Of a DNA stretch of 64,000 nt, positions 32,408-38,414 are shown in pieces. Source of the DNA: Paenibacillus lutimineralis (GTDB taxonomy: Bacteria; Bacillota; Bacilli; Paenibacillales; Paenibacillaceae). The stretch covers positions 3,943,501 to 4,007,500 of the forward strand of contig NZ_CP034346.1 in assembly GCF_003991425.1 (NCBI RefSeq), in the 5' to 3' direction. Numbering within the stretch: position 1 is the first letter of the stretch; each line of letters starts with the position of its first letter. The position numbers were made by a program, and so were the translations under genes. Under the pieces are notes generated by a model. That model was not told the origin of the DNA, did not search any database, and saw only the letters and a program-made list of their open reading frames with translations.

Positions 32408-33271
32408 CTAGCTCAGCAACTTGCGAATGCGCTCTGCTTCCGCCTCTGTCGGAGGAATAAGCGGTAGTCGCACCGATCCCACCGAATATCCGCGCTGGTT
32501 AAGCGCATACTTCACAGCAACCGGATTTGGGCATTCGAATAATCCCTTGAATACCGGCAGCAATCTTTGATGCAGCTTCGCAGCTTCTTCTACTTGACCT
32601 GCCAGGAAGCTAGTGATCATTTCCTTCATCGGACCGCCAACGATATGACTTGCAACACTCACAACCCCATAGGCCCCAACGGCCATAGCAGGGAGCGCAG
32701 CCGCATCATCACCGGAATACACTTTGAAATCGGCCGGAGCAGCACTAGCAATCTCAGCCACTTGGTCCAGAGGAGCGCACTCCTTAGTAGCGACAATATT
32801 AGGGATTTGCGCCAATCTCAATGTTGTCTCAGCACTGATGCTAATGCCCGTACGACCCGGGATATTGTACAGTACAGCTGGCAATGAAACCGAATTAGCA
32901 ATTGCAGAAAAATGTTGATATAACCCTTCCTGGGAAGGCTTATTATAATATGGGGCTACAAGCAACAGTCCATCTACACCCAAATTCTCTGCTTTTTTGG
33001 ACAATTCAATGGTGTGGGCTGTATTGTTGCTACCAGTCCCCGCAATAACTTTGCATCTGCCAGCCACATGTTCTACCGTAAAGCGAAATAACTCCAGCTT
33101 TTCCTCGTCTGTCAATGTTGGAGACTCGCCGGTCGTACCGCATACAACCAGGCTGTCGGACTTCTGTTCCTCAATTAGATAATCGATAAGACGAGCTGTC
33201 TCGCCCCAATGAATTCGATTCTGTTCATCAAATGGTGTAACCATCGCTGTAATCAATCTACCGAAATCCAT
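32408..33271 (-). CDS. dapA: 4-hydroxy-tetrahydrodipicolinate synthase
   Basis: A 287-residue TIM-barrel aldolase that condenses aspartate semialdehyde and pyruvate, the branch point to DAP, lysine and spore dipicolinate. VVCGTTGESPTL, the catalytic Tyr in AVLYNIPGRTG and the Schiff-base Lys in IVATKECA are seen. ATG 33271 follows GAGAGGGGAG; the frame extends 18 bp further without need. Last gene of the dpa/dap operon; its product feeds DpaAB in the mother cell. Its substrate must come from an asd gene elsewhere, since the local asd is broken. Confidence 0.96.
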   Translation of the reverse strand: MDFGRLITAMVTPFDEQNRIHWGETARLIDYLIEEQKSDSLVVCGTTGESPTLTDEEKLELFRFTVEHVAGRCKVIAGTGSNNTAHTIELSKKAENLGVDGLLLVAPYYNKPSQEGLYQHFSAIANSVSLPAVLYNIPGRTGISISAETTLRLAQIPNIVATKECAPLDQVAEIASAAPADFKVYSGDDAAALPAMAVGAYGVVSVASHIVGGPMKEMITSFLAGQVEEAAKLHQRLLPVFKGLFECPNPVAVKYALNQRGYSVGSVRLPLIPPTEAEAERIRKLLS

Positions 33272-33334
33272 CTTCGTCTCCCCTCTCAATTCGCTGAATA
33301 AGCGGAATATAACTTATTTATAGGCTTAAGCTAT

Positions 33335-34558
33335 CTACCGGCCCAGTTCAAACTTGGTATGCAAAGCCCGCAATGCCGCCACCATATCATCCTGATTGAC
33401 TAGTACCCAAATCGTCGTATTGGAATCCGCAGATTGCAGAATCTGTACATTCTGCTCCGTTAATGCTTCAACGATTTTGGCCATAATTCCCGGAACTCCA
33501 TTGATTCCACCGCCGATAACCGATACTTTGGCGCAGCCTGTAAGCACATCCGGTCTCAAGTCGAGCTGCTCCAATACATGTACCGCTTTATCCGAATCAT
33601 GGTCAAATACCGTATAAACGACTCCTGACGGGGTAACATTAATAAAATCGACACTGATTGAATTCTCTGCCATCGTCTTAAAGACCTGCAGCTGTAAGTA
33701 CTCCTTATTGTTGCCACTGGATGCATCAACCTTGATCTGTGTCACATTGTTCACATAGGCGATGCCAGTAACATAACGGTCCAAAATGCCGAGTTGCACA
33801 TCCTTGAATCCTTCCGGGTTCGCAACGAGCGTTCCTTCGCTCTCCGAGAATGTGGAGCGTACGCGCACAGGTATGCCTGATTGCATGGCAATTTCAACTG
33901 CCCGCGGATGAATGACCTTGGCCCCTTGATGAGCCATATTGCATATTTCAGCATAGCTCACATAGTCAAGCTGTCTTGCATCCTCTACGATTCTAGGGTC
34001 TGCTGTAAGGATGCCGTTTACATCCGTATAAATATCGACCATTTCAGCATGAAGCGTCGCACCCAGCGCCGTTGCCGAAGTGTCGCTTCCACCGCGTCCC
34101 AGTGTCGTAAAGTCGCCGATCTGATTTTGCCCCTGGAACCCAGTTACAATTACAACGTCTTTCTGCTCTAGCTGCTCCAGCACTCGGGTAGGAACAATTT
34201 CGAGAATTCTGGCATTGCCATAATGGCTATCCGTTCGGAACCCAGCCTGCGCCCCCGTCAATACGGAAGAAGAAATATTTTCTCTATTCAGCAGGCTGCT
34301 AAGCATGGATGCGGAGATCATTTCACCACAGGCTAACAGTAAATCCTGTTCCCGCGGCTCCAATGATCCCCCAGCACCAGCAATAAGATCAAGAAGGGTG
34401 TCTGTTGCATATGGGTCGCCTTTTCGACCCATTGCTGACACCACCACAACGAGCCGGAAACCGTTAGCCAGCTCCCGGCGAATATGTGAGATGACGTAAT
34501 CTCTTGCCTCCGGAGTGGAGAGAGAAGTGCCACCGAATTTTTGCACTAAGATGCGCAT
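33335..34558 (-). CDS. dapG: Aspartate kinase (DapG type)
   Basis: A 407-residue aspartokinase. Kinase domain with VQKFGGTSL, GRGGSDTSATAL and the ATP-site VDIYTDVNGILTADPR; two C-terminal ACT domains (KAVHVLEQLDLRPDVL region and VSVIGGGINGVPGIMAKIVEAL). Single alpha/beta-type gene of normal length. In Bacillus the paralogue in this operon is DapG, inhibited by meso-DAP. No lysine riboswitch is visible in the upstream 80 bp, which holds the end of the asd remnant. ATG 34558 is preceded by GGAGGAA. Confidence 0.94.
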   Translation of the reverse strand: MRILVQKFGGTSLSTPEARDYVISHIRRELANGFRLVVVVSAMGRKGDPYATDTLLDLIAGAGGSLEPREQDLLLACGEMISASMLSSLLNRENISSSVLTGAQAGFRTDSHYGNARILEIVPTRVLEQLEQKDVVIVTGFQGQNQIGDFTTLGRGGSDTSATALGATLHAEMVDIYTDVNGILTADPRIVEDARQLDYVSYAEICNMAHQGAKVIHPRAVEIAMQSGIPVRVRSTFSESEGTLVANPEGFKDVQLGILDRYVTGIAYVNNVTQIKVDASSGNNKEYLQLQVFKTMAENSISVDFINVTPSGVVYTVFDHDSDKAVHVLEQLDLRPDVLTGCAKVSVIGGGINGVPGIMAKIVEALTEQNVQILQSADSNTTIWVLVNQDDMVAALRALHTKFELGR

Positions 34559-34635
34559 GGGTATTCCTCCAATTTACGTATGCGGAGTAAAGCTTGACTT
34601 TATTCCGTTATTCTAGGTTGTTATGGTATCAAGTT

Positions 34636-34987
34636 TTATCCTTTGGCTGCAATAATCTCTGCAATTTGAACAGCGTTCCATGCTGCGCCTTTTCAGCAGA
34701 TTATCGGACACAATCTACAATTTCAGCGCCCGCGCATTGCCAAGATTACGACGCAGACGGTCTATGAACACCTCCGTCTTGACGGCAGCTTCCGTGACCA
34801 GAGTCTTAGCTCTGCACTGCCGGATCGTCAACAAGCGTCACACCCGGTGCATCGGACAGCAAGCTTCTCACTCCATCCAGATCGTGGCCCGTGCCAACTT
34901 GACATAGACCGACCTCAAAATGCCCATAAACAACCGGAATACGCACGCAGGTTGCTGTTACCTAAGTTAATAGTCCTTCATATGCCC
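34636..34987 (-). pseudogene. asd: Degenerate 3' remnant of aspartate-semialdehyde dehydrogenase
   Basis: Minus-strand translation gives Asd C-terminal blocks in different frames: VTATCVRIPVVYGH and SLLSDAPGVTLVDDP in one; VTEAAVKTEVFIDRLRRN and, after an in-frame TAG, IVSDNLLK in a second; and WNAVQIAEIIAAKG with the stop at 34636 in a third. The TAG stands where Trp is expected (LWIVSDNL). The N-terminal two-thirds, with the NADP site and active-site Cys, are absent; the remnant abuts the dpaB stop. The place between dpaB and dapG is that of asd in B. subtilis. It cannot encode an enzyme. Confidence 0.92.
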
Positions 34988-35581
34988 CTATGAATTGAAC
35001 CGTTCTCTAATGAGCGGCTGCAATTGCTTACCTTCAAGCGCCGCGAAGCAGGCCTCAGGAACCAGTTCCATCTGTGCCACAAGAGAATTTGGCTTCTCTA
35101 CCGGATTATCCTGACCGAAAGGAACGAAGTATAGATTCTTCGCGACGATAAGCTTGGCGATGTTCGCCAGATTAAACCCCAGACCATCATTCGTTGAAAT
35201 GGCGACCACGAGTGGACGCCCATTGCGCATTTGCGCTTTTGCTGCCATCAGGACAGGACTATCTGTTACAGCATTCGCAAGTTTACTGGTCGTAGTTCCT
35301 GTACAAGGCGCTATAACCATGATATCTAGCAATTTCTTAGGTCCGAGCGGCTCGGCCTCGACAATTGTAGAAATGATATTATTCCCGGTAATATCTTTTA
35401 ACTGCTTCTGCCAATCCTCTGATTTGCCAAAACGGGTATCCGTCGTTAGTACCGATTGGGATATGATCGGAACAACTTTAGCACCATCATCCACAAAACG
35501 TTGGATTTGCGGCATCACCTCAGCAAGTGTACAATGTGAGCCTGTTACCGCATAACCTACCGTTACACCTTGCCAATTCAC
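34988..35581 (-). CDS. dpaB: Dipicolinate synthase subunit B
   Basis: A 197-residue flavoprotein-fold subunit of dipicolinate synthase, which oxidises dihydrodipicolinate to DPA in the mother cell. Recognised by GVTVGYAVTGSHCTLAEVMP, MVIAPCTGTTTSKLANAVTDS (as VIAPCTGTTTSKLAN) and ALVVAISTNDGLG-type sequence (PLVVAISTNDGLG). Its ATG overlaps the dpaA stop by 4 bp. The stop is directly followed by asd remnant sequence. Confidence 0.95.
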   Translation of the reverse strand: MNWQGVTVGYAVTGSHCTLAEVMPQIQRFVDDGAKVVPIISQSVLTTDTRFGKSEDWQKQLKDITGNNIISTIVEAEPLGPKKLLDIMVIAPCTGTTTSKLANAVTDSPVLMAAKAQMRNGRPLVVAISTNDGLGFNLANIAKLIVAKNLYFVPFGQDNPVEKPNSLVAQMELVPEACFAALEGKQLQPLIRERFNS

Positions 35582-36477
35582 TCTTCATCCCCCCGTAAAT
35601 GGAACTCTTCCGTAATCGACTGACACAATGTGTTCGCTATAATAATTCCAGCCGTTTTAGGAGCTACGATTCCAGGTAATCCGGGAGCAAGGAGCGCTTT
35701 GATTCCACGCTTCTCGGCGAAGCGGAAATCCGTTCCGCCAGGAGCTGAGGCAAGGTCGATAATTACCGTTCTTCTAGGCAATTTCGATATGATTTGCGCT
35801 GTGATTATCATAGTCGGTATTGTATTAAAAATCAAGTCAATATCGCTAGTGTAAGCGGTCAAATCCCTTGTCATAAAAGGCTCCCAGCCCATAACAGCAG
35901 CTCTCGCAGCATCCGCCTCCCGGCGGACACCTACCCTGATTTTCGCCCCTAATCCCTGCAAAGTCTTCGCCAGAGTGAAGCCTGTTCTCCCAATTCCAAG
36001 CACGACACAGGTCGAGTCGTGAATGGTAATATCAGTATTCTGAATTGCCATCATAAGGGCTCCCTCTGCCGTCGGAATCGAATTGTATATCGCCACATCA
36101 TCACGATCAAGGAGTTCGATCAGACGGAAACCATACTCGGTGCTCATCCGTCGCAGCAAGCTCTTGGCCATGCCCGTGTATACCAGGGCTCCCTCCCGTA
36201 TGGCCATAAACAGCTCCTGCTTCATCACCAGATCTCCGCTTCCGAACGGCGCAGCGATAATTCCATTGTCATCGCAGCCAATCACCGGCATGACGATAAT
36301 ATCCGCCTCTTGCAGCAAAACAGAAGACAACGCTTCATGCCTCACTCCGGAAGGCGAATTTTCCAACTTGTCGAAGCCAACCAGACGAACCAATGCATCT
36401 AGTTCAATACACTTATTAATGACTTCGACCTGCCTGGCATCTCCACCCAGGAACACAATTGTAAGACCGGTCAGCAT
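35578..36477 (-). CDS. dpaA: Dipicolinate synthase subunit A
   Basis: A 299-residue NAD(P)-binding subunit of dipicolinate synthase. The N-terminal domain begins GLTIVFLGGDARQVEVI; the Rossmann domain has CVVLGIGRTGFTLAKTLQGL; the conserved end is LAPGLPGIVAPKTAGIIIA. ATG 36477 follows GGAAGGAGTGG. It begins the spoVF-type operon; a sigma-K match lies 40-65 bp upstream, consistent with the mother-cell sigma-K dependence known for spoVF. Confidence 0.95.
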   Translation of the reverse strand: MLTGLTIVFLGGDARQVEVINKCIELDALVRLVGFDKLENSPSGVRHEALSSVLLQEADIIVMPVIGCDDNGIIAAPFGSGDLVMKQELFMAIREGALVYTGMAKSLLRRMSTEYGFRLIELLDRDDVAIYNSIPTAEGALMMAIQNTDITIHDSTCVVLGIGRTGFTLAKTLQGLGAKIRVGVRREADAARAAVMGWEPFMTRDLTAYTSDIDLIFNTIPTMIITAQIISKLPRRTVIIDLASAPGGTDFRFAEKRGIKALLAPGLPGIVAPKTAGIIIANTLCQSITEEFHLRGDEE

Positions 36478-36514
36478 TCAGGACGCCACTCCTTCCAGGC
36501 AATACAGTATAGAG

Positions 36515-36542
36515 CATAGTATGCCGATGCCTACCAAGTGGT
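36515..36542 (-). promoter_or_regulatory. Sigma-K promoter of dpaAB
   Basis: Minus-strand AC (36541-36542), 17 bp, CATACTATG (36515-36523), to compare with sigma-K AC-N16/17-CATAnnnTA. Only the last base of the -10 differs. Confidence 0.5.
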
Positions 36543-36656
36543 GAAGGTGACAGTAAACTTTTTACACTGCCCAAGCTGCTGTTTGGACTAGTCTGAGAAA
36601 ATAGCAATGTTTCATCCTACTGTGATAGTGATGGCATGGTAAATCTACAAATACAC

Positions 36657-36706
36657 AAAAAACAAGCATGCAGGCTTCAGTCATTCGACTAAGCCTGCAT
36701 GCTTGT
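36657..36706 (-). terminator. Terminator of dut
   Basis: A perfect 16-bp stem ACAAGCATGCAGGCTT / AAGCCTGCATGCTTGT, then TTTTTTGTG on the minus strand. Confidence 0.9.
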
Positions 36707-36721
36707 AATTTACTTCTATAC

Positions 36722-37171
36722 TTACTTCGTTCCCGTATGACCAAACCCGCCGGCGCCACGCGCTGTATCGGACAGTTCATCTACTGTAAGCAGGTTAACC
36801 ACTGGTACAGTCTGGAACACCATTTGCGCAATACGCTCATTGCGTGTAATTGTGAACGCCTCGTGCCCCAGATTGATCAGCAGCACCTTGATCTCTCCGC
36901 GATAATCCGCATCGATCGTCCCAGGCGTGTTAAGGCAAGTGATACCATGCTTCAAGGCCAGTCCGCTGCGCGGACGGATTTGCGCTTCAAGTCCAGCTGG
37001 CATTGCGATCGAAATGCCTGTGGGTACGAGAAACCGTTCTCCAGGCTGTAATCTGATATCCTGTGTTACTGCTGCATAAAGATCAAAACCAGAGGCAAGC
37101 TCAGACATTTTGCGGGGAAGCTCTACGTCCTCATTGCCTGGCATACGTTTTAACTGCACATCAAATGACAA
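36722..37171 (-). CDS. dut: Deoxyuridine 5'-triphosphate nucleotidohydrolase
   Basis: A 149-residue trimeric dUTPase. The five motifs are visible: [44 protein letters not shown] and [10 protein letters not shown]. The initiator is likely TTG 37171: AAGGAG lies 8 bp upstream of it but only 2 bp before ATG 37177. It overlaps the 3' end of mlpA. In B. subtilis the small gene ymxH stands in this place; none is seen here. Confidence 0.94.
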
Positions 37172-38414
37172 GTTCATCTCTCCTTAATCCGGATATTGCC
37201 CGGTCCGAGGCACCTACCATGGCAAGTGCGAACGGCTTCTTGAACATTTCCTTAATACAATAGTCTACATCATCCATCGTTACCGCATCAATACGATCTA
37301 TCATTTGATCGAGGGTAAAATGACGTCCTAGCATCAGTTCATTCTTACCGAGACGGTTCATCCGACTCCCCGTACTCTCCAAACTTAGAATCAGGCTGCC
37401 CTTAAGCTGCTCCTTGCCCTTACGGAGCTCGTTATCGGTCAGTCCGTTTTGTGCGATATCATGCAAAATTTCCTTCGTTAAAGTCAGAACATCTTCGGTC
37501 TGCTTCGGCGCAGTCCCAGCATAGACCGTGAACAGGCCGCTATCCGCACTAGAGCTGTGATAGGAATAGACAGAGTAGGCCAGGCCACGCTTCTCGCGAA
37601 TCTCCTGGAACAGGCGAGAGCTCATGCCTCCACCAATCGCATTGTTAAGCAGCACCATCGCATATTGTCTGTCATCCCCGGTGGCAAGTCCCGGAAATGA
37701 GAGACAGATATGATTCTGCTCCGTCTTCTTCTTATAGAACCTGAGCTCGCCGAGAAATTCAGGTACGACCAATTGATCACTAACTCCATGATTACTGAAA
37801 TTTCCGAAATATTTCTCTAGCAGCTCAATCAGAGAGTCATCGATATTGCCTGCAACACTAATCACTGTATTCTCGATCGTATACTTCTCTCTCATATATT
37901 GGCGAAGATGATCTGGCGTCATTGCCAGAAGCTTCTCCTCGGTTCCAAGAATAGGCAGGGCCAAAGGATGTTCCCCATAGGCGGCTTCTGTTATGAGATC
38001 GTGAACCATGTCATCCGGCGTATCTTCGTACATCGAGATTTCCTCCAGGATGACGTTCTTCTCTTTGCGAAGCTCTTCTGCATCAAACAGTGAATGGAAG
38101 AACATATCCGACAGCACATCAACCGCAATCGGCAGATGTTCATCTAGTACCTTGGCATAGAAGCAGGTATACTCCTTCGAGGTGAACGCATTAACATTGC
38201 CGCCGATTGCATCGAATTCCTCAGCAATGTCTTTGGCACTGTATCTTGACGTTCCCTTGAACAACATATGTTCAATAAAATGAGAAATCCCGCCCTGCTC
38301 CGGCGTTTCATTACGCGACCCAGTCTTCACCCAAATACCGAAGGAGACAGATCGGCAGGATGGAATTTTCTCCGTAACGACCCGCAGGCCATTGCTTAAT
38401 TGCGTCTTATTCAC
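37161..38414 (-). CDS. mlpA: M16 family zinc peptidase (MlpA/YmxG)
   Basis: A 417-residue processing-peptidase-like protease. Zinc motif [11 protein letters not shown] (HxxEH) with the second ligand Glu in [17 protein letters not shown]; the C-terminal half has [24 protein letters not shown]. Starts at GTG 38414 after TAGGAGGATCC. The neighbourhood pnp ... ylxY-mlpA ... dpaA matches Bacillus. The full active site distinguishes it from YmfF. Confidence 0.93.

Follow-up and report, generated by a model that had tools for sequence, protein, structure and literature searches.

The Bacillus subtilis cluster spoVF (dpaA dpaB)-asd-dapG-dapA is the closest described counterpart of the locus analyzed here. 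Its asd product, Asd, converts aspartyl phosphate into aspartate semialdehyde, a step needed for DAP, lysine, threonine and methionine and also for the dipicolinate of the mother cell. When an essential biosynthetic gene is displaced by a distant relative, this is usually seen only afterwards.

Microbial Asd proteins have been divided into Gram-negative, Gram-positive and archaeal/fungal branches, the bacterial enzymes being dimers and the archaeal/fungal ones tetramers that lack the helical subdomain (PMC4751538). In other Firmicutes, a lysine riboswitch (L-box) controls lysC-asd-dap operons (PMC5584792), and PMC11477304 lists an asd operon under the same riboswitch. T-boxes have been described upstream of serA in Paenibacillus polymyxa, where the specifier AGC is supported by mutation (PMC8002221, which also names the T-box database TBDB), and of lysK in Bacillus cereus. 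A lysine T-box is rarely present on a lysyl-tRNA synthetase gene, only four species among 891 genomes having one (PMC2916919). The additional files of PMC3766115 sort 1134 T-boxes, and the main text of PMC2494555 does not name asd. For Paenibacillus itself, dpaAB has been used in another host (PMC9024752), and asd is named without detail in a cell model (PMC10373932). Gene displacement, pseudogenes, T-boxes and lysine-linked control of asd (lysine riboswitches, PMC5584792) are all known kinds of phenomena. In the open-access literature we found no account of asd displacement or of an asd T-box in Paenibacillus, which is limited evidence, and no paper that joins Asd with gene displacement or T-box with Asd and lysine. 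TBDB may list such T-boxes.

We have analyzed a stretch of 64,000 nucleotides (the window) of Paenibacillus lutimineralis (genome G000, NZ_CP034346.1), located within a single contig of 6,497,679 bases (6.50 Mb). Coordinates between 32408 and 36477 are window positions, those of asd_EA and ArgC refer to contig C1 of G000, and the other G and L numbers denote compared genomes and loci. Our best reading of the sequences is that an essential gene of the operon has been displaced, more than once, by a non-orthologous one. The ancestral bacterial-type gene of dpaAB-asd-dapG-dapA (asd_B) is eroding in place, and its job would have been taken over by a non-orthologous gene of the archaeal/fungal branch (asd_EA) led by a T-box with the specifier AAA (probability about 0.88).

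A broken asd in an intact dipicolinate cluster

Read along the minus strand, the locus consists of dpaA, dpaB, a gap, dapG, dapA and RNase J, with all genes open. In terms of NCBIfam scores, dpaA (35578..36477, dipicolinate synthase subunit A) reached 381.6 bits with NF006162 and 364.9 bits with TIGR02853, dpaB (34988..35581, subunit B) 318.7 bits with NF006161 and 289.5 bits with TIGR02852, dapG (33335..34558, aspartate kinase) 593.5 bits with NF006068 and dapA (32408..33289, 4-hydroxy-tetrahydrodipicolinate synthase) 342.6 bits with TIGR00674, all four being intact. Gene order and neighbors are those of B. subtilis apart from asd: the B. subtilis cluster has the gene, whereas G000 keeps a remnant, and in 25 further genomes of the 40 from the genus asd is broken or gone.

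The preliminary description had proposed a broken asd at this place, with the last third split over three frames and a TAG at an expected Trp, and all of these pieces were found on the minus strand where it had put them. The remnant (34636..34961) corresponds to the 3' third of asd_B, approximately codons 237-344 in three frames, as delimited with PF02774, TIGR01296, tblastn and alignment with G015, G030 and G031. Its peptides start with VTATCV... at 34961 and VTEAAVKT... at 34798, and the peptide WNAVQIAEIIAAKG closes with its own TAA at 34636-34638. The TAG (34715..34717) stands at a Trp codon of the intact relative G015. In profile searches of the whole genome the remnant matched PF02774 (E 1.3e-5, 27.2 bits for a cut-off of 26) and positions 233-283 of TIGR01296 (E 5.5e-7); for a fragment of this size such weak scores are still clear, and they are beyond chance. 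A tblastn search of the gap with the intact AsdB of related genomes agreed, the four best matches covering residues 237-288 at 66-71% identity. Only 26 nt (34962..34987) separate the dpaB stop from the first recognisable asd codon (about 237/238 of 344), so that at least one deletion took out the 5' two thirds of asd, in line with the earlier claim that the N-terminal part was lost up to the dpaB stop. No open frame spans the whole asd_B length in G000, since codons 1 to about 236 are missing and the rest carries shifts and the TAG.

A stop and frame shifts resemble errors, and the whole picture might be explained by faulty sequencing or assembly of an intact asd. However, when the deletion boundary was compared in sister species, G031 and G030 (DapG 97% and 94% identical to that of G000, respectively) had the same left boundary. 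The gap between dpaB and dapG measures 432 nt in G000, 433 nt in G031 (rated 100% complete) and 435 nt in G030, gap position 30 is where the best match to the remnant starts in each of them, and the indels differ from one genome to another. The remnant and its left boundary being shared, assembly error is ruled out, and short gaps in 26 of the 40 genomes also speak against error of either kind, which we regard as practically excluded. One of the sharers, G030, does have other broken genes, and for that reason its letters are less trustworthy. In this single-contig genome dapG is matched from residue 43/44 and RNase J from residue 40, and asd_EA lies in two frames (L069, L133); uncorrected long-read errors are possibly the cause.

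We have examined the distribution of changes over codon positions in order to see how the remnant evolves. Between G000 and G030, it differs by 22 changes at positions 1+2 and 15 at position 3, compared to 34 and 89 for dpaA+dpaB. The share of positions 1+2 is higher in the remnant (Fisher p 7e-4, G030 being the lower-quality assembly). The comparison of G031 with G030 gave 26 and 18 changes (p 4e-4 against the same 34/89), a test that is not independent of the first. G000 and G031 differ by 8 changes at positions 1+2 and 8 at the third, which is not enough to reveal drift. With respect to G015, third positions differ in 73 of 118 cases and positions 1 and 2 in 22 of 117 each. The dominance of third-position differences indicates that most of the divergence of the remnant predates the loss of function.

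The remnant could also have been retained as a working leader of dapG (a promoter, an RNA element or a short peptide) and not be in unfinished decay at all. Among the 13 genomes where a fragment is clear, 12 have kept the 3' part of asd alone, and the stretch directly 5' of dapG is conserved, with 13 differences to G015 in 74 positions against the 73 in 118 of the asd third positions. Yet the conserved element there, a dyad (GGAATAAAG-TCAAG-CTTTACTCC, 34584..34606, minus strand, found by pattern search), sits past the asd stop and outside the remnant, shortly upstream of the dapG ribosome-binding site, and is probably not part of asd. Besides, the codon-position pattern and the lineage-specific indels point to drift, Rfam gave no match up to E 1 over window positions 33000-37500, and eight of the 26 short gaps hold no remnant at all. 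A leader function of the remnant seems unlikely to us. Around the remnant, a scan counted six promoter-like sites, where shuffled sequence gave 3.4 on average, and no terminator-like site, a result that tells little.

The dyad itself may be an operator or a hairpin. A related dyad, searched with a loose pattern, appears in 24 of the 40 genus genomes irrespective of asd type. We considered it as an operator common to dapG and asd_EA and rejected this, given that the exact pattern GGAATAAAG-N5-CTTTACTCC occurs a single time in G000, at dapG.

An Asd of the archaeal/fungal branch

The preliminary description had expected a second functional copy of asd elsewhere in the genome. A full-length Asd was indeed found 1.18 Mb from the remnant, but it is not a copy of asd. 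This gene, asd_EA (361 aa, G000:C1:5163052-5164137, minus strand), scored 354.7 bits with TIGR00978 (cut-off 301.2) and only 99.1 bits with the asd_B model TIGR01296 (cut-off 324.2). Its product matches the solved archaeal/fungal-branch Asd chains 5jw6, 3hsk and 1ys4 over the whole length (E 9e-80 to 3e-75), and Cys158, which we take to be the catalytic cysteine, lies in an Asn-Cys-Ser segment aligned with the Asn-Cys of 5jw6 and 3hsk. The malonyl-CoA/succinyl-CoA reductase 4dpk, of the same superfamily, reached 216.1 bits compared to 271.8 for the best Asd. In score, full-length alignment and Asn-Cys segment asd_EA is thus like the archaeal/fungal Asd (TIGR00978; 1ys4, 3hsk, 5jw6); unlike the solved ones, it would serve a spore-forming relative of Paenibacillus.

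The reading of the preliminary description, that a duplicate elsewhere had made the operonic gene dispensable, would explain why G000 has a full-length Asd outside the cluster. Against it stand the 99.1 bits of asd_EA on the asd_B profile, far from the cut-off, and the search of the whole G000 genome with this profile, which found only asd_EA, the remnant and ArgC, none of them over the cut-off. We judge a duplication very improbable.

Both family domains are present over the full length in just two proteins of G000, asd_EA and ArgC (451.1 bits). The second full-length PF02774 protein (G000:C1:5864704-5865174) was considered as an Asd and rejected, as it is this ArgC. Over 361 codons, the asd_EA genes of G000 and G031 differ 12 times at position 1, never at position 2 and 64 times at position 3, and this concentration at position 3 indicates that the gene is under selection. 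It stands alone, flanked by two sets of ABC transporter genes (six proteins tested). The product of asd_EA is probably the working Asd enzyme of G000.

One type or the other across the genus and the family

In the genus, asd_EA is the only type in 26 of the 40 genomes and asd_B in 13; one genome (G008) has both and none has neither. Of the 27 asd_EA genes, 25 are over the cut-off and two (G027, G030) come in two overlapping pieces, and asd_B is over its cut-off in 14 genomes. We extended the count to 295 genomes of the family (the 40 among them, and drawn evenly from a larger group), scoring a type as present from E 1e-60 downwards. On this basis asd_EA occurs alone in 153 genomes and asd_B alone in 100, 41 have both, and one, G055, which is 89% complete, has neither. 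These are matches and not all of them intact genes, as asd_B has a stop inside in G119 and G245 and is partial in G053. The departure from independence is strong (Fisher p 9e-44), a value that is only descriptive because related genomes are not independent. With both types matched in 41 family genomes, the presence of asd_EA does not always lead to the loss of asd_B. Of 398 genomes sampled across the phylum, 32 have asd_EA, and six of these belong to the family of G000.

Exactly one type in 39 of the 40 genus genomes, at least one in 294 of the 295 family genomes and a graded set of remnants are what the displacement of one gene by the other would leave. From this we infer that asd_B and asd_EA perform the same job, and the complementary distribution lends indirect backing to an Asd activity of asd_EA.

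Two side observations come from the family set. In G119 and G245 the asd_B match has one internal stop (TAA and TAG, respectively) beside a stop-free asd_EA match, possibly further fresh losses of asd_B in other genera. Two asd_B matches each were found in G185 and G238, the only such genomes of the 295.

The gap between dpaB and dapG measures 1167-1257 nt in the 14 asd_B genomes versus 73-800 nt in the other 26. We searched the gaps by tblastn with 14 intact AsdB queries, without composition correction or masking, and counted as fragments the matches with E 1e-3 or better in this small set. Thirteen of the 26 short gaps contain one. Among them is G004, where an 800-nt gap has asd pieces from both ends and whose relative G008 retains both genes. 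In G000, G030 and G031 the remnant begins at codon 237, in G006 codons 279-343 are left, and in G013, G017, G021, G022, G032, G035, G036 and G037 the pieces start from about codon 291 or later, seven to nine tenths of the gene being lost. Five gaps (G003, G011, G012, G014, G018) gave borderline matches (E 0.002-0.007), and no asd was recognisable by tblastn in the remaining eight (G002, G005, G009, G010, G023, G025, G027, G034).

We also examined the best 80 of 579 named loci located through dpaB (74 labelled Paenibacillus, four Cohnella). There, the asd site has an intact asd in 41, a fragment in nine, nothing in 29 (at E 1e-3 and with a short gap) and a DpaA-like frame in one. This last case is P. 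ihuae (L207:4725-5597), in which a second DpaA-like frame, 59% identical to the DpaA of the window, occupies the former asd site between dpaB and dapG besides the usual dpaA.

By parsimony the asd_B state changes at least seven times and the asd_EA state six, outgroups left out in the latter. The species tree behind these numbers was built by a quick search from seven proteins of one chromosomal neighborhood (45 rows, with five outgroups filled 29-44%). The seven changes are an estimate, because the tree is limited and parsimony is blind to loss versus regain. Clear fragments are present in four of the seven lines (G006; the G004-G037 clade; G000, G030 and G031; and the G013 clade), and asd loss is, as read from these fragments at the site, documented in those four. 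It is not private to G000 but common to G030 and G031 and repeated in other lineages.

How asd_EA reached these genomes

The route of asd_EA is a matter apart from the displacement. Either the genus descends from an ancestor with both Asd types, one of which was lost in each lineage, or asd_EA was transferred repeatedly. We built a tree of asd_EA with 27 rows from the genus and 13 from other genera, in which 14 of the 37 inner branches are under 80. All but one of the 27 genus genes form one group (SH-aLRT 82) and the small subclades follow the species tree, as expected from loss out of a common ancestor; the 41 family genomes with both types fit as well. In 14 genomes of the G008 and G003 clades the same oxidoreductase and transporter genes come after asd_EA, again what an inherited location would give in two clades.

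Other observations do not fit so well with differential loss. The asd_EA of G034 groups with other genera and comes without a T-box. The asd_EA tree places the G008 and G003 clades together (SH-aLRT 94), in conflict with the species tree, where they stand apart (SH-aLRT 96), and this fits transfer between these clades. In other clades the location of asd_EA is different, and its neighborhood also exists without it: G011 has the oxidoreductase and transporter genes elsewhere, with no asd_EA, and the asd_B-only G007 has part of the region from which asd_EA is absent. The gene of an SstT-like neighbor of asd_EA is found in 19 of the 40 genomes and, among asd_B-only genomes, just in G007, so that this empty-site comparison fits a lost and a never gained asd_EA alike. 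Finally, both types persist in only one of the 40. Differential loss by itself is in our view a tenable explanation, somewhat short of an even chance, and probably both loss and transfer occurred.

A T-box with a lysine specifier in front of asd_EA

In the printed DNA of G000, GGGTGGTACCGCG is found upstream of asd_EA, followed by a terminator-like stem and a T run. A T-box (RF00230, 101.9 bits for a gathering score of 93, model positions 1-219) lies there, about 180 nt before the start codon, and the stem plus T run could be read by eye in G000, G008 and G004. Two Rfam searches placed T-boxes over the gathering score at 19 of 20 and 12 of 17 asd_EA loci. Within the genus 26 of the 27 loci have one, with the exception of G034, and so do five of ten sampled loci from other genera of the family (10 of 21 tried). 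Conversely, none of 15 asd_B-type genus loci (14 intact plus the fragment of G004) gave an Rfam element over the gathering score.

At the specifier place, all 31 T-boxes that were read have AAA followed by G. The AAA comes one base after GAA in 29 of them, two in G023 and none in G030, whose specifier is readable as AAG too, AAA and AAG being both lysine codons. Infernal aligned three of the 31. As a control, 11 other T-boxes of G000 were given to Infernal and 10 alignments were obtained. The cognate codon appeared in the specifier column in all nine that were counted: leuS CUC, ileS AUC, metG AUG, valS GUC, serA AGC, argS CGC, trpS UGG, pheS UUC and tyrS UAC. The tenth, before an NhaC-type antiporter, was not counted, as the GAA distance reads UAC and its alignment is shifted by one. 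The names of the control genes come from NCBIfam matches of truncated pieces; eight exceeded the curated cut-off, and ileS stayed under it (575.5 of 621.4). The serA reading agrees with the mutational result reported for P. polymyxa in PMC8002221.

The whole G000 genome has 29 T-box matches (L283-L311), 12 over the gathering score and 17 under. We considered whether the lysine codon was unique to the asd_EA T-box and rejected it, because a simple pattern, which may miss odd ones among the 29, also matched the metG T-box (L286) elsewhere in stem I. The specifier of L286 is AUG, and L291 has the same letters at that place of stem I. Other features of this set deserve mention. The IleS piece downstream of L285 (G000:C1:2116135-2116415) reaches better scores with the exception models for IleS2, though below the cut-offs of these, than with the general ileS model, and so the T-box seems to lead an IleS of the second type. 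The letters GAATTACAC occupy the specifier place of the tyrS T-box (L293) and also of the T-box before a look-alike protein (L294), and three sub-threshold matches lie close together at 5549105-5550319.

Compared to known T-boxes (RF00230, P. polymyxa serA, B. cereus lysK), the asd_EA leader is alike in the stem I specifier, the GGGUGGUACCGCG box, the terminator-like stem and the T run. Unlike them, it precedes an asd of the archaeal/fungal branch, with lysine as the specifier. It resembles the L-box operons in that asd is under a lysine-linked RNA switch, but the ligand of the L-box is lysine itself, whereas here the sensor would be uncharged tRNA-Lys. As far as the leader sequences tell, asd_EA is probably under tRNA-Lys control, with an RNA switch that would respond to lysine starvation.

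Possible consequences for dipicolinate supply

With asd_B dead in G000, asd_EA is the sole candidate Asd found. When tRNA-Lys is charged its leader would terminate transcription, and when uncharged tRNA-Lys accumulates, read-through would raise it. Having a tRNA-Lys T-box in its leader, this second step of the pathway would leave the transcription of the dipicolinate/DAP cluster and follow lysine demand instead. By pathway logic, dipicolinate supply would depend on asd_EA, since no other full-length Asd was found, and the aspartate semialdehyde of the mother cell would come from it.

One may go further and imagine that in asd_EA species the drain of the mother cell's DAP pathway into dipicolinate lowers lysine charging, so that the T-box raises Asd on demand. 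Such metabolic feedback would replace operon linkage, and lineages would have switched repeatedly since one arrangement serves as well as the other. We find this doubtful, and induction of asd_EA by the dipicolinate drain itself is speculation.

What gives the displacement of asd a moderate interest is that every stage is visible in one genus: both genes together, a two-ended pseudogene, shrinking remnants and an apparently clean loss, all at the same site and in several independent lines. The genus may serve to study how the loss of an essential gene from an operon proceeds, whether linkage in the operon is of importance to the supply of dipicolinate, and which Asd an inhibitor would face in each species. 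It is also a warning, as a broken operonic asd alone is no ground for scoring the lysine pathway as broken. If the idea of feedback, which we find doubtful, is true, the swap altered the supply of spore dipicolinate synthesis, with asd_B species making Asd from the dipicolinate/DAP cluster and asd_EA species doing so under a switch that would follow lysine.
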